Source: DATDCY01 sp031406795 [NCBI: Candidatus Rokuibacteriota bacterium] (GTDB taxonomy: Bacteria > JAUVQV01). Taken from it: a stretch of 21,377 nucleotides of DNA. Both the position numbers and the translations under genes were made by a program. The DNA lies in assembly GCA_031406795.1 (NCBI GenBank), contig JANOHV010000223.1, positions 1-21,377 on the forward strand. The letters run 5' to 3'. The notes beneath the pieces were generated by a model. That model ran no database searches. It was not told the DNA's origin and worked only from the letters and a program-made list of their open reading frames with translations. Below, piece after piece: positions 1,968 to 18,699 of the stretch; the stretch's first letter is position 1; every line of letters begins with the position of its first letter.

Positions 1968-4148
1968 GTGATTTCTTCCTCCCGTCGATTTCGTGCCGGT
2001 TGCGCACTGCTGCTTCTCGCTCTTGCAGCCGCCCCCGCGCTCGTTCGCGCGCAGGGCGCGGCGGTCGTGCCGGTCGTCTCCTATCCGCTCGACATGACGC
2101 TTGTCGAGCGGGCCGATCTCCCCGTCGAGGGGTTCGTGTCCGGTGCGGGTGTCGAGGAGATCGACATCGTCGTCAACGACGGACGGCCCGTGATCGTCCC
2201 CGTGCGCGACGGCCTCTTCGCGGAGGAGGTCAGCCTCGATGACGGGCTCAACACGCTGCGGATCGGGAGCGTGGTGCGCACGGTCTGGCTCGCTTCCGCT
2301 TCGGCGCAGCCGCCGGCGGGCTACCGGCCGGTCTATGGTCACTTCGGTCTCAACGACAGCTGTCTGGAGTGCCACAAGACCGCAGGCGCGGGAGTTTTGG
2401 TGCTCGCCGGCGAGCGCGAGGAGATCTGCGGCTGGTGCCACGGCGACCTCACGCGCGGCCGCGGCGGTGTCGCCTGGGCATCCGTGCACGCGCCGGTGGG
2501 CGCCGGCAAGTGCCTCACCTGTCACTCCCCCCATCTCTCGGTGAAAAAGGGGCTTCCCGCGGAGAACGCGCCGACGTGCGTCGGCTGCCACGCCGCCGTT
2601 ACCGACCGGCTGAAGACCGACCGTTTCGTGCACGGCCCGATGAACCTCGGGGATTGCCGCCTCTGCCACGCGGTTCACTCCTCCGCGGAGCCGAAACTGC
2701 TCGTCCGGCCGGCGACCGCCCTGTGCACCGACTGCCACAGCGACGCGCTCCCCCCCGCGGGGACTCCCGCCGCCCTGAAGCCACACCCGATGATCCCCGA
2801 AGGTCAGTGCGGCCGCTGCCACGAGCCGCACTCCTCGGCGAACCCGCGCATGCTCCGCCAGCCCGCGGGGCGGCTCTGCCAGGGGTGCCACGAGGGGAAG
2901 ACCCGCAGCTTTCACGAAGCCAAGGGCTTCTCGATCTACATCTGCGCCAAGTGCCACGACCTGCACCGCCCGACGCAGCCACACCTGATCATGGAGGCCA
3001 GCCGCTCGCTCTGCACCGAGTGTCACGACTTTCGCGGGGAGGCCGTGTTCACGCACTCCTTCGTCGCCGAGGGCAAGTGCTTCCTCTGCCACAGTTTCCA
3101 CGAGGCGCCGCTCTCGAGCGACGTCGCGTCGCTCTGCCTCGGCTGCCACCGCGACAACCCGCGTCTCCAGGAAGCGCACCGCGGGGTCTCCATCGAAAAG
3201 TCGCGCTGCACGAGCTGCCACCTGCCGCACCAAGCCCGCCGCGGCAAGCTGCTGCGCGCCGAGGAGCACACGCCGTTCAAGGCGCGCACCTGCGAGGTGT
3301 GCCACCGGGACCGCGCGGCGAAGATCGGGCCGATCCTGGCTCCCCTGTGCCTCGATTGCCACCGCGACAGGCAGGCTCCCGCAGCGTCCGCGGCGGTGAC
3401 GGTCCACCCGCCCTTTCGCGACAGCGATTGCAGCAGCTGCCACCGGAGCCACAATGCGGAGGCGCCCAACCTGCTGCGGGAGTCCGAGGGTGCGCTCTGT
3501 CTCGGCTGCCATCGCAAGATGCGCAAGACGATGCTGATCGCGCCGGTTTCGGCGCACTCGGCGGTTCGCGACGGGCGTTGCGGCGTTTGCCACGATCCCC
3601 ACTACTCGGCGGACCCGGCACTGCTGCGCCAGCCGCAGAGCAACCTGTGCCCCTCCTGTCACGCGACGCTCGTAAAAGCCCCCGGCGGCGGTCCGTGGGC
3701 CGTCGGGCACAAACCGGTGGACGAGAACAAGTGCCGCCTCTGTCACCGCAGCCACACCGCGCCCAACCGACGGCTGCTCAAGTCACCGCAGGCGCAGTCC
3801 TGCCGCCCCTGCCACGCGGGATTCTTCGCCGCGATCGAAGCTGACGACATGCGTTCGCTCCACAAGCCGGTCAAGGAGGGAGCGTGCGGCGCGTGCCACA
3901 CACTGCACGGGGGGACGCTCGCCAAGCTCCTCAAGGACGGTGTGCGCGGGCCGGTCTGCGGCGGCTGTCACCCGAACCCGCCCGGAGCGCATCACCAGTT
4001 CTCCGCCGATCAACTCAAGGTCGCGGGGGATCCTTCGCAGATTGAGGCCAGCGGCTGTCTGCTCTGTCACCTGCCGCACGCTTCGGCGCAGCGCACCCTG
4101 CTGCTGGCGACCGCGTCAGCGGTCTGTAAGGGCTGCCACAACTCCTGA
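1968..4148 (+). CDS. Exported 25-heme c-type cytochrome with N-terminal Ig-like domain
   Basis: The product has 726 residues. The signal peptide is at about 1-28 (basic 'RRFR', Leu/Ala core, 'LVRAQ' cleavage-like site). A beta-sandwich, Ig/cadherin-like domain at about 35-110 has the pattern 'YPLDMTLVERADLPVEGF..VNDG..VRDGLF..LDDGLNTLRIG'. From residue 132 to the C-terminus I count 25 CxxCH heme c attachment motifs, about one per 24 residues. They occur in pairs with distal His, as in the doubled-CxxCH family (for example 'GQCGRCHEPHSSANPRMLRQ...RLCQGCHEG'). Such proteins carry electrons in the periplasm or at the outer surface. The start is GTG, and a three-codon frame ATG-GCG-CCG-TGA (1960-1971) ends across it. 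The gene is convergent with a second multiheme cytochrome gene. The family assignment is secure; the electron donor and acceptor cannot be inferred. Confidence 0.93.
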   Translation: MISSSRRFRAGCALLLLALAAAPALVRAQGAAVVPVVSYPLDMTLVERADLPVEGFVSGAGVEEIDIVVNDGRPVIVPVRDGLFAEEVSLDDGLNTLRIGSVVRTVWLASASAQPPAGYRPVYGHFGLNDSCLECHKTAGAGVLVLAGEREEICGWCHGDLTRGRGGVAWASVHAPVGAGKCLTCHSPHLSVKKGLPAENAPTCVGCHAAVTDRLKTDRFVHGPMNLGDCRLCHAVHSSAEPKLLVRPATALCTDCHSDALPPAGTPAALKPHPMIPEGQCGRCHEPHSSANPRMLRQPAGRLCQGCHEGKTRSFHEAKGFSIYICAKCHDLHRPTQPHLIMEASRSLCTECHDFRGEAVFTHSFVAEGKCFLCHSFHEAPLSSDVASLCLGCHRDNPRLQEAHRGVSIEKSRCTSCHLPHQARRGKLLRAEEHTPFKARTCEVCHRDRAAKIGPILAPLCLDCHRDRQAPAASAAVTVHPPFRDSDCSSCHRSHNAEAPNLLRESEGALCLGCHRKMRKTMLIAPVSAHSAVRDGRCGVCHDPHYSADPALLRQPQSNLCPSCHATLVKAPGGGPWAVGHKPVDENKCRLCHRSHTAPNRRLLKSPQAQSCRPCHAGFFAAIEADDMRSLHKPVKEGACGACHTLHGGTLAKLLKDGVRGPVCGGCHPNPPGAHHQFSADQLKVAGDPSQIEASGCLLCHLPHASAQRTLLLATASAVCKGCHNS

Positions 4149-4202: not shown

Positions 4203-4326
4203 GGCCGGCTGCTCAAAAGGGTCCAGATGCCAGGCGGACGACGATCCGGCGACTGAGGCGTACGAGTGGTACGCCGCAGGGAGCCGGGAGGAGGACAACG
4301 CCGCAGGTGGGCCGTTTTCAGCGGCC
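4203..4326. repeat. MITE-like intergenic element with imperfect terminal inverted repeats
   Basis: The left end GGCCGGCTGCTCAAAAGGGT and the right end GGGCCGTTTTCAGCGGCC are imperfect inverted repeats. In the middle is a perfect short palindrome, GCGTAC-gagtg-GTACGC (4258-4274). The right 41 nt duplicate 4152-4192. The element lies between two convergent cytochrome genes, and its right end contributes the TGA stop (4318-4320) of the minus-strand gene. It encodes no plausible protein. It may be a non-autonomous mobile element or a structured 3' end; mobility is an inference. Confidence 0.6.
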
Positions 4327-6348
4327 GGACGGTAGATAGGACTGGGTGATGTGGCAGCCGCCGAGGCACTTGCCGCCGGCGCCGATCTTCTTGAATTCGA
4401 TCTGGAGGCAGGGGACCCCGTTGCAGTCGAGCACGCGGCGGATCAGCCGCGGCGACTCGGTTGCGTGCGGGACGTGGCAGTTGCGACAGGTGACGCCGGG
4501 TTGTACGCGCGTCCCGAGTTCCGAGCGCGACACCCGGTCGCGCAGATGCAATGCGTGCAGATTCCTCGCTCCGTCGGCGAACCCGGTGTCGCTCCCGCGG
4601 TCCGGGTCGGTGAGCGCACTCTCGTCGTGGCACTCCAGGCACAGCCCGTAGCGTTCGGCGGCGAAGCGGACGTACTGTTCGATCGGATAGGGACGGACGA
4701 GCAGGTGCTCGTTCGCCGCCCCGTGCGCCGGGTGGCAGGCGCCGCAGTCGCCCTCGCGCACCGGATCGTGCACGGTCTGCTGCGCGAAGCGCGATTGCGG
4801 GTGGCAGGTGAAGCAGAGCGCCGGGCGCACGGCGCGCAGCAGCGCCTGCTCCCGCGCCGCGTGGGCCCGGTGACAGCCGAGGCAGCCTTTGGCGGCGAGT
4901 ACCCCGTGCGGTTGCTTCTCCCGGCCGATCTCGTCGTGGCAGCCCCGGCAGACCTCGACGATGTTCCCGGCAACCCGCCAGCCCCCGGCCGGCGCGCCGT
5001 GGCAGGAACCGCAGTCGCCCTCCGCATACGGCGGATGGCGCTGCTCGTAGACGAAGCCCGCGGTGTCGCCGCCGTGGGGGTCATGGCATTCCGTGCAGCG
5101 ACTGCCCTCGAGGGCGTAGCCCCCGTGCGCCGCGAGCGAGGCTTCCGACCCGGTGTTGTGGCAGCGGGCGCAGATGCGATCTTCGCGGCCGAGGAGGAGC
5201 AGCCGGTTCTCCGGACCGTGGTCGAGATGGCAGAAGCTGCAGGCCCCGGCGCGGACGGGGGCGTGGAGGCGGGCCTTGGCGAAGCGCTTCACCGCCTTGG
5301 CGTGGCAGGTGACGCAGCTCTTGTTGATGCTGCGCTCGAGCGCGCTCTGCTCGGGCAGGGCGGCCGTCGCCCGCGGCGGGGCGACCGAAGGCGACACTGC
5401 CGGGGGGGCGGCCGGATCGAGGGCGCCGGTGAACGCATAGCGCTGCGGTGCGTGGCAGCCCGACAGACACTGCCCGCCGCTGTCCGTGCGCCGGAAATCC
5501 AGCTTCAGGCAGGGGACCCCGCCGCAGTCGAGTTCGCGCCGCACCAGACGCGGTCCCTCGGAGGAGTGCACCTCGTGGCAGCTGCGGCAGGAGAGGCTCT
5601 GCTGCGGTTGGCCGCCGCCGGCCGGGCCGGAGGTGTCGACGTGGAGCGCGTGCAGGTTGTTCTCGCCGGAGCGAAACAGAGTGCCCTCGGCTCCCGCGGT
5701 AAAGAAATTCCGGCGGTCATGACAGCCGAGGCAGAGCGCGACATCGCTCTCGCGGGCGACCCAGCGGCCGGGAGTGTACCGCGCTTTGAGCAGCGAGGGC
5801 CGGCGCGAGGCATGCGGGTCGTGGCAGGCCAGGCACTCGCCCCGCTTGACCGGGGCATGAGCGATCCGGCGGGTAAACTCCTCGCCGGCATGGCAGCCCA
5901 GACACAATTCGCGGGCCGGCTTGAGCAGCTTGCCGTCGAAGCGGTGGCAGGGGTCGCAGCGGCCGAAGGCGAGCGGCCGGTGGCGCCGCGGCAGCAGCAG
6001 GTGTTCCTCGCTCGAGCGGTGCGGGTCGTGACAGGAGATGCAGAGGACCTTCGGGCCGCGAACACCGTGGTGGGCTTTCAGGAATGCCGGGTCAGCGCTC
6101 GCATGGCACTCTTCGCAGAGCGCGTTGCCCGCCGCGGCGAGGACGAGGCGCCCCTCGTCGCCGTGCTCGACGTGACAGGCGGTGCAATCGTCCTCGTCGA
6201 ACGGCGGGTGTACGCTGCGGGAGCCGGCGCCAATGTCCCCTTTTTCGTGGCACTCGCTGCACGGCTCGGCGGCGAGCGGGGCCGGCGCGCCAAGCGACCC
6301 GCCGAGAAGCAGCGCGAGGAGCGCAACGGCGGCCCGCCGTGCGCTCAC
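4318..6348 (-). CDS. Exported ~22-heme c-type cytochrome with two CX3CH motifs
   Basis: The product has 676 residues and starts at a GTG (6348). The signal peptide is about 1-27 ('ARRAAVALLALLLGG...PLAA'). There are 20 CxxCH motifs plus two CX3CH motifs, CLSGCH (residues 294-299) and CLGGCH (661-666). Each CX3CH closes a matching module: 'NLHALH', a CR(S/N)CH heme, 'PRL(V/I)RR.LDC(G/N)GVPCL', 14 residues between the last Cys of the CX4C pair and the CX3CH, then the CX3CH. The protein therefore looks like a tandem duplication of two multiheme halves joined by a Pro/Ala linker (about 308-333). The CX4C pair (C275/C280 and C642/C647) lacks a following His and may be a disulfide. It probably carries electrons in the periplasm or outside the cell. 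No Shine-Dalgarno is evident; a 36-residue ORF ends 25 nt upstream and might couple translation. Confidence 0.92.
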   Translation of the reverse strand: MSARRAAVALLALLLGGSLGAPAPLAAEPCSECHEKGDIGAGSRSVHPPFDEDDCTACHVEHGDEGRLVLAAAGNALCEECHASADPAFLKAHHGVRGPKVLCISCHDPHRSSEEHLLLPRRHRPLAFGRCDPCHRFDGKLLKPARELCLGCHAGEEFTRRIAHAPVKRGECLACHDPHASRRPSLLKARYTPGRWVARESDVALCLGCHDRRNFFTAGAEGTLFRSGENNLHALHVDTSGPAGGGQPQQSLSCRSCHEVHSSEGPRLVRRELDCGGVPCLKLDFRRTDSGGQCLSGCHAPQRYAFTGALDPAAPPAVSPSVAPPRATAALPEQSALERSINKSCVTCHAKAVKRFAKARLHAPVRAGACSFCHLDHGPENRLLLLGREDRICARCHNTGSEASLAAHGGYALEGSRCTECHDPHGGDTAGFVYEQRHPPYAEGDCGSCHGAPAGGWRVAGNIVEVCRGCHDEIGREKQPHGVLAAKGCLGCHRAHAAREQALLRAVRPALCFTCHPQSRFAQQTVHDPVREGDCGACHPAHGAANEHLLVRPYPIEQYVRFAAERYGLCLECHDESALTDPDRGSDTGFADGARNLHALHLRDRVSRSELGTRVQPGVTCRNCHVPHATESPRLIRRVLDCNGVPCLQIEFKKIGAGGKCLGGCHITQSYLPSGR

Positions 6349-13500: not shown

Positions 13501-13572
13501 CGGGAGGGTCTGAAACCCTCACCTACAACCCGATCATAGTCAAAGGTGTAGGGGCGGGATTTATTCCCGCCC
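13501..13572. repeat. Inverted REP pair (BIME-like) upstream of trxB
   Basis: There are two REP hairpins in opposite orientation. The first, read on the minus strand, is GTAGGTGAGGGTTTCAGACC plus CTCCCG (13501-13526; stem GAGGGT/ACCCTC at 13504-13509 and 13515-13520). The second, on the plus strand, is GTAGGGGCGGGATTTATTCC plus CGCCC (13548-13572). Their GTAG tags face each other across 21 nt, as in the terminal inverted pairs of the two large arrays (20 nt). The rest of 13440-13650 is AT-richer than its surroundings and holds no gene. Confidence 0.75.
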
Positions 13573-14609: not shown

Positions 14610-15819
14610 GCACTACGCGTGGGTGATCGTCGTCGGCGGGACGCTGACCACGTTCGCCGCGCTGGGCCTCGGCCGTTTCGCGCTCGGGATGCTCCTGCCG
14701 TCGATGGCCGCCGACCTCCACCTGGGTTATGCCCGGATGGGGCTGATCGGCACCGCAAACTTTGTCGGCTACCTCATCGCCGTTCTCGTCAGCGGGATCG
14801 TCGCCTCGCGGGTTGGCCCGCGCCGGATGGTCGTCGGGGAGCTGCTGCTCGCCGGGATCTCGCTCGTCGGGGTCAGCCGTGCCGAATCCCTCGAGGCGCT
14901 GCTCGCCCTGTACTTTCTCACCGGGCTGGGCAGCGGCGCGGCCAACGTGCCGATGATGTCGCTGGTCGCCGCGTGGTTCGGCAGCCGTGCGCGGGGCCGG
15001 GCGGCCGGCTTCATCGTCAGCGGCAGCGGTTTCGCGATCCTCCTCACCGGGTGGCTGGTCCCGCTGCTCAATCTGCGACTGGGCGCCGCGGGGTGGCGCG
15101 CCAGCTGGCTGGTCATCGCCGGAGTCATGCTGTGCGTCGCGGCGATCAATGCCGCGATCCTGCGCGACCGGCCGGCCGACCTCGGGCTGGCGCCCCACGG
15201 CGGCGAGGCGGCGGCCTATCTGCCGCCGGCGCACCATCCGCGCGGCATCGGCGCCGTGCTGCGTCGCGGCGTCCTCTGGTATCTCGGGCTGCTCTACTTC
15301 CTCTTCGGCTTCACGTACGTCATCGCGGCGACCTTCATGGTCACGGCCCTCGTGCGCGATCGCGGCTTCCCGGAGTCGGTGGCCGGGACGTTCTGGTCGA
15401 CCGTCGGCGCGCTCAGCCTGCTCTCGGGTCCGATCTTCGGGACGCTCTCGGACCGGATCGGGCGCCGGGGCGGGCTGGCGATCGTCTTCGGGCTCCAGTC
15501 GCTCGCGTACGCGCTCTTCGCCTCGGGGCTGCCAGGCTGGTCGCTCGTGGTCGCCGTCGGGTGCTACGGGCTCACGGTCTGGAGCGTCCCCTCGATCATG
15601 ACGGCGGTGGCCGCCGACCTGGCCGGGCCGCACAATGCCGCCGCCGCCTTCGGGTTCATCACCTTCATCTTCGGCCTCGGCCAGATGGCGGGGCCGGTTG
15701 CCGCCGGGGCGCTCGCGGAGGCTTCGGGGCATTTCGCGTCGAGCTTCGCGCTGGCCGCCGCCCTCGCCGGGCTCGCGGCCATCCTGTCGCTGTTGCTACG
15801 GGTGGCGGACCGGGTGTAG
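14608..15819 (+). CDS. Major facilitator superfamily transporter (YbfB/YjiJ-like)
   Basis: The product has 403 residues with about 12 TM helices. It begins at once with TM1 ('HYAWVIVVGGTLTTFAALGLGRFALGMLLP'), which carries the 'GLGRF..G..LP' signature seen in YbfB/YjiJ-type MFS proteins. The MFS loop 2-3 motif appears as 'ASRVGPRRMV' (about 66), and the equivalent loop 8-9 motif is 'GTLSDRIGRRGGLA' (about 278). A cytosolic loop of about 30 residues separates the halves. The substrate is unknown. The start is a GTG at 14608 with a weak G-rich ribosome site buried in a hairpin; no earlier in-frame start fits. It lies 42 nt after trxB. The first array of 48-bp REP repeats begins 23 nt after its stop. 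Confidence 0.85.
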   Translation: MHYAWVIVVGGTLTTFAALGLGRFALGMLLPSMAADLHLGYARMGLIGTANFVGYLIAVLVSGIVASRVGPRRMVVGELLLAGISLVGVSRAESLEALLALYFLTGLGSGAANVPMMSLVAAWFGSRARGRAAGFIVSGSGFAILLTGWLVPLLNLRLGAAGWRASWLVIAGVMLCVAAINAAILRDRPADLGLAPHGGEAAAYLPPAHHPRGIGAVLRRGVLWYLGLLYFLFGFTYVIAATFMVTALVRDRGFPESVAGTFWSTVGALSLLSGPIFGTLSDRIGRRGGLAIVFGLQSLAYALFASGLPGWSLVVAVGCYGLTVWSVPSIMTAVAADLAGPHNAAAAFGFITFIFGLGQMAGPVAAGALAEASGHFASSFALAAALAGLAAILSLLLRVADRV

Positions 15820-15841
15820 CGGATCGGCGAAAACCGTTCAT

Positions 15842-16055
15842 GGGCGGGGGTGAACCCCGCCCCTACGATGGGCGTTTGGATTGTTGTTCGGGCGGGGATG
15901 AACCCCGCCCCCTCGACGGGCGTTTGGATTGTTGTTCGGGCGGGGATGAACCCCGCCCCCACGGTGGACATTTGGATTGTTGTTCGGGCGGGGATGAACT
16001 CCGACCCCACGGTGAATGGTTCAAATCACTGTAGGGGAGGGGTTCACCCCCTCCC
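15842..16055. repeat. Left REP array: four 48-bp direct units plus one inverted unit
   Basis: Palindromic cores (GGGCGGGG, 5-nt loop ATGAA/GTGAA, CCCCGCCC) start at 15842, 15890, 15938 and 15986, exactly 48 nt apart; the fourth is degenerate. Each is followed by a 27-nt linker ending TTTGGATTGTTGTTC, and by CTAC/CCAC at the core edge (GTAG/GTGG on the minus strand; unit 2 has GAGG). The last unit (GTAGGGGAGGGGTTCACCCC plus CTCCC, 16031-16055) is inverted. The array runs from just after the MFS gene to just before the RAYT stop. Confidence 0.93.
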
Positions 16056-16065
16056 GCCATCTCCC

Positions 16066-16563
16066 TCAAACCCAATCCCGCCGATCCGGCCACGTCCCCG
16101 ACCCGGACCACCGGTACTTCGCCGCTTCCGCGACAATCCCCGACCTCACCGGGTTGCCGAAGACATATCGTGTCACGTCTACAAGCCGCTCCCCGTGCCT
16201 GGGCGCATGGTCGTGAAATCCGCGCTGCCAGAGCCGGCGGTGGGGATCGATGCGGCGCGCGCGAGGCGTCAGGCTCCCCTTGAAAACACGGACATAACCG
16301 GTCAGATCGGCATCCTCCAGCAGGAAATGCACGTGGTCCGGCATGACACACCAGGCGTGCAGCGTGGTCTGGCGGGCGTCGGCGAGCCCGACAATTATTG
16401 CGGCGGCATCGTCTGCCAGGGTTGGATGCAGGGAGAACCAGGGGTGACGGTTGTCCGTGCAGATCGTGACGAGAAACACCCGTCCCGGGGCATGGTACGA
16501 GGCAGAATCAAGGCGGATTCGTTTGCGGTGAGGGGTGACGGATGTCGTCGAGCGCCTGGTCAT
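16066..16563 (-). CDS. REP-associated tyrosine transposase (RAYT, IS200/Y1 superfamily)
   Basis: The product has 165 residues. The N-terminal 'HRKRIRLDSASYHAPGRVFLVTICTDNRHPWF' is a typical RAYT opening. The HUH metal-binding motif is H77-V-H79 in 'WCVMPDHVHFLL', and the DNA-nicking Tyr is Y133 in 'TRYVFGNPVRSG'. 'VRVFKG', 'LWQRGFHDH' and a terminal 'KYRWSGS' are also family features. These single-strand nucleases bind and cleave REP hairpins. The gene appears intact, so it may be active. ATG 16563 has no obvious Shine-Dalgarno. The stop lies 10 nt from the inverted REP of the left array. It is on the same strand as the GTAG reading of the direct REP units. Confidence 0.92.
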   Translation of the reverse strand: MTRRSTTSVTPHRKRIRLDSASYHAPGRVFLVTICTDNRHPWFSLHPTLADDAAAIIVGLADARQTTLHAWCVMPDHVHFLLEDADLTGYVRVFKGSLTPRARRIDPHRRLWQRGFHDHAPRHGERLVDVTRYVFGNPVRSGIVAEAAKYRWSGSGTWPDRRDWV

Positions 16564-16615
16564 GGACGAATGTAATGCAGGATTCGTTCCCTAGATGGAT
16601 GGCATGCACTTCGGC

Positions 16616-16926
16616 GGGCGGGGATGAACCCCGCCCCTACGATGGACATTTGGATCGTTGTTCGGGCGGGGATGAACCCCGCCCCCACGGTGGACATTTG
16701 GATTGTTGTTCGGGCGGGGATGAACCCCGCCCCCACGGTGGGCATTTGGATTGTTGTTCGGGCGGGGATGAACCCCGCCCCCACGACGGGCGTTTGGATT
16801 GTTGTTCGGGCGGGGATGAACCCCGCCCCTACGATGGGCGTTTGGATTGTTGTTCGGGCGGGGATGAACCCCGCCCCTACGATGGAGGGTTCGAATCTCC
16901 GTAGGGGAGGGATTCGATCCCTCCCG
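16616..16926. repeat. Right REP array: six 48-bp direct units plus one inverted unit
   Basis: Cores identical to GGGCGGGG-ATGAA-CCCCGCCC start at 16616, 16664, 16712, 16760, 16808 and 16856 (48-nt period), followed on the plus strand by CTAC or CCAC. An inverted unit, GTAGGGGAGGGATTCGATCC plus CTCCCG (16901-16926), closes the array. Linkers are mosaics of a few variants, two of which are identical to linkers of the left array. The gap 16564-17037 holds only this array and the ilvD promoter. The 48-nt period keeps reading frames open, but none is credible as a gene. Confidence 0.95.
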
Positions 16927-16967
16927 AGCGGCGGGGCGTCCGGCCGCGCCGAACGGTGACTCCGCGC

Positions 16968-16996
16968 GGGACAGGTCGCCGATCTTCGGTTATACT
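16968..16996 (+). promoter_or_regulatory. Promoter of the ilvD-sigma-permease operon
   Basis: GGGACA (16968-16973, four of six to TTGACA), a 17-nt spacer and TATACT (16991-16996). The start site would be near 17003, giving about 35 nt of leader with AAGGGGTGA before ATG 17038. It lies 42 nt past the end of the right REP array. Confidence 0.6.
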
Positions 16997-17037
16997 GTGC
17001 TGAAACAATGACCACGGAACGACGAAGGGGTGACCCG

Positions 17038-18699
17038 ATGCGCAGCGACATGATGAAAAAAGGGATCGAAAAGGCTCCGCACCGCTCCCTGATGAAGGCC
17101 GTCGGTCTCATCGACGAGGAGATCGCGCGCCCGCTCGTGGGCATCGCGAACTCCTGGAACGAGATCGTCCCCGGCCACACCCATCTGCGCGACCTGGTCG
17201 ATGCGGTCAAGGCCGGCGTGCGCATGGCGGGGGGGACGCCGCTGGAGTTCGGCGTCATTGGCGCCTGCGATGGCCTCGCGATGAACCACCCCGGCATGAA
17301 GTACTCGCTCCCGAGCCGCGAGCTGATCGCGGATTCCGTCGAGGTCATGGTCACCGCCCAGCCTTTCGATGCGCTCGTGCTCGTCCCCAACTGCGACAAG
17401 ATCATCCCCGGCATGATCATGGCCGCGCTGCGCCTGAACATCCCGGCCATCGTGATCAGCGGCGGGCCGATGCTCGCCGGGCGCCAGGGCGGGAAGAAGA
17501 TCGACCTGATCTCGGTCTTCGAGGGGGTCGGCGCGGTGAAGGCGAAGAAGATGGGCGCCCGGGAACTGGCCGAGATGGAGGACAACGCCTGCCCGACCTG
17601 CGGTTCCTGCTCGGGCATGTTCACCGCCAACTCGATGAACTGCCTGACGGAGGCGATCGGCCTCGGCCTGCCCGGCAACGGCACGATCCCCGCGGTGACC
17701 TCCGCGCGCCGCCGCCTGGCCAAGCACGCCGGGATGCAGGTCATGGAGCTGCTGCGCAAGAACATCCGTCCCCGCGACATCGTGACGAAAAAAGCCATGG
17801 CCAACGCCATCGCGGTCGATATGGCGCTCGGTGCCTCCTCGAACACGGTGCTGCACCTGCCCGCCATCGCGCACGAGGCCGGATTCACGCTTGAACTGGA
17901 GACTTTCAACAAAGTCAGCCGCACCGTGCGCCGGCTCTGTCACGTCTCGCCGGCCGGGCCGTGGCACCTCGAGGACATCGACGCCGCCGGCGGCATCCCG
18001 GCCGTGATGGCCGAACTGGCCAAGGGCGGGCAGATCAACCGCTCGACGATGACCGTGACCGGAAAGCGCACCGGGGCGCTGCTGAAGGAGGCTCGCCTGC
18101 GCGACCCCGAGGTCATCCGCCCCTGGGACAACCCCTTCGCGAAGGAGGGCGGCCTCGCGATCCTCTTCGGGAACCTTGCCCCCGCCGGCGCGGTCGTCAA
18201 GCAGTCCGGCGTCGCCCCCGACATGATGAAGCGCACGCTCACCGCGCACGTCTTCGAGAGCGAGGAGGAAGGCTCGGCCGCGATCCTCGGCGGAAAGATC
18301 AAGAAGGGCGAGGTCATCATCATCCGCTACGAAGGTCCGCGCGGCGGGCCCGGCATGCGCGAGATGCTCGCGCCGACCTCCGCGGTCGTCGGCATGGGCC
18401 TCGACCACGACGTCGCGCTGATCACCGACGGCCGCTTCTCCGGCGGCACGCGCGGCGCGGCCATCGGCCACGTCTCCCCGGAGGCGGCCGAGGGCGGGAT
18501 GATCGCGCTGGTCAGGAACGGCGACCGCATCGAAATCGACATCCCCGGCCGTCGCCTCGAACTGCTGGTTCCCGAGGCCGAGCTTTCCGCGCGCCGCAAG
18601 AACTGGAAGGCGCCGAAGCCGAAGATCACCACCGGCTACCTGGCCCGCTACGCGCGCATGGTGCGGTCGGCGGGCACCGGCGCGATCCTGGAGGACTAG
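17038..18699 (+). CDS. ilvD: Dihydroxy-acid dehydratase
   Basis: The product has 553 residues, full length for IlvD, which dehydrates 2,3-dihydroxy acids to 2-oxo acids in valine, isoleucine and pantothenate synthesis. Conserved features include '[10 protein letters not shown]' (41-50), 'GACDG' with C77, 'PNCDKIIPG' with C119, '[19 protein letters not shown]' (C185/C188/C191), 'GNGTIPAV' and, near the end, '[12 protein letters not shown]' with '[12 protein letters not shown]'. C77, C119 and one of the CPTCGSC cysteines are the likely Fe-S ligands. The ATG at 17038 fits the family start 'MRSDM.KKG' and has AAGGGG upstream; the upstream ATG at 17008 would add ten unusual residues. An ECF sigma gene begins one nucleotide after its stop. 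Confidence 0.95.

Follow-up and report, generated by a model that had tools for sequence, protein, structure and literature searches.

Does a transposase gene that sits between two regular arrays of short palindromes represent a new kind of element, or is it a known kind in an orderly form? The question is raised by a locus within a stretch of 21,377 nucleotides, which we call the window. The gene encodes a RAYT (TnpA-REP). On each side of it is an array of one 48-bp REP, and a unit in the opposite orientation stands at one end of each array. We argue that the locus is a REPtron. This means one RAYT with its cognate GTAG-tagged REPs and their inverted partners (iREPs), in this case with one REP repeated head to tail. 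We put the probability of this reading at about 0.9. No new mechanism is required for it. The locus is a distant RAYT with a row of a single REP on each side, which is a known kind of arrangement in a tidy form.

Layout of the locus and anatomy of the hairpins

The features are collected in Table 1. On the RAYT-sense strand (minus) they follow each other as iREP (16925-16901), six REPs (16880 to 16616), RAYT (16563-16066), iREP (16055-16031) and four REPs (16010 to 15842). The RAYT is bracketed by a REP upstream (16616-16640, minus) and an iREP downstream (16031-16055, plus), which is the usual REPtron arrangement. All units within a row have the same orientation. The tags of each array and of its inverted REP face each other.

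Table 1. Features of the RAYT locus and the lone REP, in window coordinates
Feature	Position	Strand	Remark
Left array, 4 REP units head to tail, exact 48-nt period	15842..16010	-	downstream of RAYT
Left array/inverted REP junction, 20 bp	16011..16030	.	
Left inverted REP ("cap"), stem GGGAGGGG	16031..16055	+	10 bp past RAYT stop codon
RAYT (TnpA-REP) gene, 165 aa, open frame	16066..16563	-	HVH motif and candidate catalytic tyrosine
Right array, 6 REP units head to tail, exact 48-nt period	16616..16880	- (RAYT-sense)	upstream of RAYT
Right array/inverted REP junction, 20 bp	16881..16900	.	
Right inverted REP ("cap"), stem GGGAGGGA	16901..16925	+	
Lone REP, built as in the arrays	13548..13572	+	between larE-like and trxB-like open frames (names by eye from translations)

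The original prediction was four units plus one on the left and six plus one on the right at a constant 48-nt period. A unit-by-unit reading agrees with this. The units start at 15842, 15890, 15938 and 15986 on the left and at 16616, 16664, 16712, 16760, 16808 and 16856 on the right, so every step is 48. Tandem Repeats Finder recovers the same rows at 15842-16011 (period 48, 3.5 copies, 90% matches, score 277) and 16615-16886 (period 48, 5.7 copies, 95% matches, score 460).

Each unit consists of a tag (4), an arm (8), a loop (5), the second arm (8) and a 23-nt linker, which makes 48. The stem arms are GGGCGGGG/CCCCGCCC in the units, GGGAGGGG/CCCCTCCC in the left inverted REP, GGGAGGGA/TCCCTCCC in the right inverted REP and GGGCGGGA/TCCCGCCC in the lone REP at 13548. 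Nine units have the loop TTCAT; the outermost left unit has TTCAC. The stems were predicted to be perfect over 8 bp. They are in nine of the ten units and both inverted REPs, but the unit at 15986 has two mismatches. A GTAG or GTGG tag was expected at every hairpin foot. It is there in nine of the ten units, both inverted REPs have GTAG, and the unit at 15890 reads GAGG. When both rows are pooled with their inverted REPs, 11 of 12 hairpins are tagged and 11 of 12 are perfect, so these are GTAG REPs in that they join the tag to a short GC-rich palindrome. The stems also differ by paired changes. At position 4 the units have C-G where both inverted REPs have A-T. At position 8 the units have G-C, and the right inverted REP and the lone REP have A-T.

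Folding as single-stranded DNA is stronger than in shuffled sequence. One 48-nt unit has z = -4.5 and the right unit with its cap (16856-16925) has z = -5.5, each with 0 of 200 shuffles as good. The left unit with its cap (15986-16055), which includes the decayed unit, has z = -2.4 with 2 of 200 shuffles as good. One can imagine that such hairpins are RNA or transcription devices (terminators, mRNA stabilizers) for the flanking genes, and that the RAYT is incidental. In favor of this idea, PMC3733652 reports REPs mainly downstream of genes, with a possible role as RNA elements. However, no Rfam family reaches its gathering score in 15000-17200; the six matches there at E up to 1 are all far below it and we dismiss them. 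The idea also leaves the GTAG tags and the inverted REPs beside a RAYT unexplained, so we consider it quite improbable.

It is worth considering whether the REPtron is also a BIME. REP and inverted REP do occur in regularly spaced modules (iREP-REPx6-RAYT-iREP-REPx4, with two similar 20-bp junctions), and inverted REP pairs, which may be REPIN doublets, are present in the window. The alternating REP orientations of a BIME are not seen; the units of each row are co-oriented. The locus is BIME-like, and we do not class it as a BIME. One REP of the same build lies outside the arrays, the lone copy at 13548 within the window, and the presumed dispersal of these REPs rests on that single copy.

The transposase

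The protein scores 94.9 bits against NCBIfam NF047646 (REP-associated tyrosine transposase, cut-off 80) and 34.4 bits against Pfam Y1_Tnp PF01797 (cut-off 23, E 2.8e-8). Against the IS200/IS605 transposase model NF033573 it stays at 20.1 bits, below the cut-off of 55. H76, H78 and Y132 (numbered without the first Met) are invariant in an alignment of 13 sequences, the window protein and 12 relatives. The best solved chain is 4er8, a TnpA-REP (E 8.5e-5), and Y132 aligns with the residue counted as 115 in it. In the E. coli enzyme the active tyrosine is Y115, and mutating it abolishes activity (PMC8266576). The family models, the open frame and these three residues bear out the claim of an apparently intact HVH...Tyr transposase gene between the arrays. 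The models and the anatomy of the REPs likewise confirm that a RAYT and REPs occur together here.

This RAYT has no close relative among those found. Genome contigs gave 109 relatives, of which 80 were kept, and the closest of these reaches 43%, measured over its best segment. Four Acidobacteriota rows, the locus L086 among them, form a group with the window (99/84) in a tree of 104 RAYT rows. The window sits there on a long branch, which the program marks as unsure. Since the protein is distant from all relatives found (at most 43%, long branch), its mechanism is carried over by analogy. On that basis the enzyme is probably a cutter of single-stranded DNA that acts on the flanking hairpins. 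If it behaves as its studied relatives do, it would bind the single-stranded hairpin of the RAYT-sense strand, and the GTAG/GTGG tag would guide a cut next to the hairpin.

Viral contigs hold no RAYT relative and no match to a 20-base pattern that spans the linker and the next stem. The REP core matches one viral contig (L128, 4848-4927) as an inverted pair with the tags outermost, 80 bp in total. The plasmids gave no match.

How usual is the arrangement?

The original prediction called regular arrays on both sides of a RAYT less usual. We took 110 RAYT loci (80 + 30) and 108 were placed. L007 and L094 are the same gene, which leaves 107 others to set beside the window. A tag-based scan of up to 1.2 kb finds recurring GT[AG]G hairpins on both sides, at least one in 52 of the 108 loci, at least two in 31 and at least three in 12, and no recurring hairpin in 43, but these counts are rough because some contigs end near the gene, near-perfect palindromes may count twice and chance hairpins are kept.

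A tag-free scan was made with Tandem Repeats Finder (period 25-130, at least 2.5 copies, a hairpin in the unit). A hairpin-bearing tandem array is found on at least one side in 19 of the 107 other loci and on both sides in 6 (L016, L031, L038, L061, L086, L112); these are counts at RAYT loci alone and we claim no enrichment from them. The scan accepts any hairpin with 6-bp arms, so the L085 array may be unrelated to REPs, and the L037 array that it scored as hairpin-free holds a hairpin with 5-bp arms by eye. The unit of most hairpin-bearing arrays at the surveyed loci is a REP plus an inverted REP. Single-hairpin units on both sides are found at just two loci (2/107), L061 and L086. The L061 arrays have periods of 48 and 46 bp and 2.5 copies each. 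The periods of single-hairpin arrays are often 43-51 bp (window, L061, L086, L092, L012 and L112 downstream), with others at 35-37 and 85-116.

Six candidates for head-to-tail runs came from the tag-based scan of the 107 loci, and L086 alone is pure. L032, L038 and L112 were rejected as pure runs on their linkers, which show an inverted REP or other hairpin inside the unit. L037 and L049 were rejected by eye for the same reason. It must be noted that the upstream array of L086, which has a tag other than GTAG, escaped the tag-based scans; the tandem-repeat counts above supersede them.

The claim of rarity therefore holds in part. For E. coli there is a published case of repeated REPs on both sides of the RAYT, and 6 of the 107 other loci have a tandem array on each side. 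Single-hairpin arrays on both sides, at 2 of 107, are less usual.

L086, in the Acidobacteriota genome G119, is the nearest form among the RAYT loci. Its RAYT is in the same supported set of the tree and it too has single-hairpin arrays on both sides, at 848-1446 (37 bp x 16.1, downstream) and 2020-2295 (48 bp x 5.8, upstream). The L086 arrays point opposite ways, whereas those of the window are co-oriented. Its tags are GTAG or GCAG in the downstream array and are not GTAG in the upstream array. No inverted end unit was seen in its stretches 851-1560 and 1860-2460. The form seen at the window locus belongs to a minority, and it is found again at no fewer than one other RAYT in the same group of the tree.

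Arrays away from a RAYT

Close pairs of the window stem occur in one of 396 Acidobacteriota genomes, G380 (10.2 Mb). This genome has 90 sites within three mismatches of its own REP, 45 per strand, and the backward control of that REP has 0 sites there. Its 22 RAYT-family matches are all below the cut-off (best 53.1 bits), and other RAYT-like genes may exist there. Forty stretches were fetched with clustered sites first: 18 hold a single REP, 7 hold only REPs that face the same way and 15 have an opposite-facing member. The members have different arms in 14 of these 15.

Three arrays were found in G380. L145 has four REPs at period 40, with no inverted unit found. L146 (contig C29) has three REPs at period 37, then one inverted REP of another stem with one mismatch. 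L164 (contig C1) has four REPs at period 43 and likewise ends in one inverted REP whose stem differs. C29 and C1 carry none of the 22 RAYT-family matches. The GTAGGGGCGGGG-type REPs of G380 resemble those of the window in the tag, in the 5' arm of the main REP and in their head-to-tail arrays, and two of the three arrays end in one inverted REP of another stem as the window rows do. G380 differs in that it has no RAYT over the cut-off and has another loop and other linkers. The tags of array and inverted unit point outward in G380 but face each other in the window, so the layouts are mirror images.

Since the capped G380 arrays are on contigs without a RAYT-family match, such arrays can arise away from a RAYT, as REP/iREP heterodimers predict. 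An array with one inverted end unit occurs in a genome without a RAYT over the cut-off, and so the array shape alone is no sign of action by an adjacent RAYT. The original prediction would have been weakened by such arrays in many genomes without any RAYT, and this has happened in part, with two capped G380 arrays on contigs that have no RAYT-family match.

The cap itself had been proposed as a less usual feature. It is indeed present on both rows of the window, although none was read in L086. The inverted end units of another stem in G380, together with published inverted REPs, make the cap fit a REP/iREP heterodimer. By comparison with G380 and the published heterodimers, the cap would be the iREP half of such a pair, which has a different stem. 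The inverted end unit is most likely the usual inverted REP partner and not a new feature.

Growth of the arrays

The linkers tell us more about how the rows arose. Read from the inverted-REP side, each of the three left linkers matches a right linker at all 23 nt, the partners being right linkers 4, 2 and 1 in that order (3/3). This upholds the suggestion that the arrays are an amplification product; the original prediction also held that they may be a substrate store of this RAYT. The order of the common linkers differs between the arrays, for the three items that can be compared. This identity shows that units were copied or exchanged between the two arrays after the arrays had diverged. 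Each array grew by repeated copying of one 48-bp unit. The two 20-bp junctions agree at 14 of 20 bases, and both have the common core GGTTC(G/A)AATC. In the predicted fold the right junction pairs with the inverted REP, and it may be the remnant of a further REP.

Another scenario starts from an older REP array that was already present at the MFS-ilvD junction. The RAYT and its own REPs would have landed inside it or next to it, and the two rows would be the split parts of that array. The rows are co-oriented and have three linkers exactly in common, as one would expect from a split. A simple split does not yield the layout, however, since both rows come with an inverted REP of their own and with 20-bp junctions that resemble each other. 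REPtrons are also reported as not seeming to move as units (PMC6006769). We consider this scenario unlikely. Recombination between the two co-oriented arrays would remove the RAYT, and a single array with its inverted REP would remain.

The surrounding genes were compared as well. The window ilvD has matches in 103 of 199 Acidobacteriota genomes, the best at 63% in G018 and the next at 57%, and in 11 of 12 other genomes, where the best full-length match is 47%. The class of G018 has four genomes and one of these has a RAYT match, at 33%. In seven Acidobacteriota ilvD neighborhoods (L118-L124, some on short contigs) only ilvD is common among the 18 window proteins (tblastn, E 1e-5). Together with the RAYT tree, the ilvD matches make a kinship with Acidobacteriota plausible. 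Elsewhere in the window, 1968-4148 (plus) and 4318-6348 (minus) are long facing frames that are rich in CxxCH and look like multihaem cytochromes by eye from their translations.

Another alternative is that the RAYT makes the arrays. It would excise single-stranded units or circles, and replication from a free 3' end would add copies beside the gene, so that arrays mark nearby RAYT activity. The arrays are on both flanks of the gene, and there is a published model in which circles cut by the RAYT yield BIMEs (PMC2817692). The 19 of 107 loci with an array on at least one side fit too, as a rate within RAYT loci that is not comparative. Against this, the contigs that carry the 3- and 4-unit arrays of G380 have none of its 22 RAYT-family matches, although weaker genes of RAYT-like type may lie elsewhere in that genome.

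The cut sites also argue against it. A CT next to the REP is the cut site of the enzymes from E. coli and Stenotrophomonas. The enzyme from Marinomonas cuts at CT or CA, and a change in its tag changes the cut (PMC8266576). The intervals between 16593 and 16886 and between 15818 and 16033 are free of CT on the RAYT-sense strand, so neither array contains this site. Toward the inverted REP, the next CT belongs to the junction (16886) or to the tag of the inverted REP itself (16903, 16033). That tag reads CTAC on the RAYT-sense strand, which puts a CT at the array edge. We regard array making by the RAYT as possible but doubtful.

One can go further and propose that the RAYT would cut at the array ends only and treat each row as a block, and that loss of the internal sites would favor the growth of single-REP rows. 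When one window unit is shuffled by mononucleotides, 2.5% of the shuffles are free of CT. Since the remaining units are copies of it, the missing CT counts as one observation. Among five single-hairpin arrays (window, L086, L145, L146, L164) the linker has no CT in three and does have CT in L086 and L145, and two of the three CT-free arrays have linkers of just 12 and 18 nt. Block cutting of this kind seems to us highly improbable. Across 68 RAYT loci including the window, CT stands directly before the GT[AG]G tag at 0.28 and AG at 0.01, which fits a C|T cut 5' of the tag. In the window a CT directly before the tag is absent from the units and present at the left inverted REP.

Between RAYT nicking and slippage or unequal exchange at hairpins as the source of growth, we favor slippage or unequal exchange. 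In a REPtron of this form the arrays would grow in place by that route and the RAYT would spread the REPs. A distant RAYT with clean single-REP rows on both sides is a good place to study how REP arrays grow.

Comparison with known systems

Literature searches found no title on this particular array. RAYTs are always flanked by two inverted REPs, one third of them in BIMEs, and the E. coli rayt gene has BIME-2 on both sides (PMC2817692). REPs occur as tandemly reiterated singletons and as dimers, and heterodimers differ in their stems (PMC3733652). In SBW25 there are REPIN clusters beside all three RAYTs and evenly spaced GI REP arrays in the genome (PMC3116915).

SBW25 resembles the window in its ordered tandem clusters beside RAYTs and in the even spacing of its single-REP arrays. 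The common unit there is the REPIN doublet, and the excerpts of PMC3116915 do not place the single-REP arrays at a RAYT. Group 3 REPtrons of Stenotrophomonas and Marinomonas (PMC8266576) share the short perfect palindrome behind a GTAG tag, with an 8-bp stem in the Stenotrophomonas REP (Sm); this is a likeness by palindrome and not a group assignment of the RAYT. The loop is 5 nt in the window versus 3 nt in Sm, and the window arrays are without CT. The REPs of E. coli are longer, have a bulge in the stem and form mosaics with iREPs, whereas the window has a perfect stem and one REP repeated head to tail. In its overall plan the E. coli REPtron (REPtron Ec, tnpA-REP; PMC2817692, PMC8266576) is like the window locus. 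It has a RAYT with HUH and tyrosine amid repeated REP/iREP modules, it has GTAG tags, and its REP and iREP are of different types.
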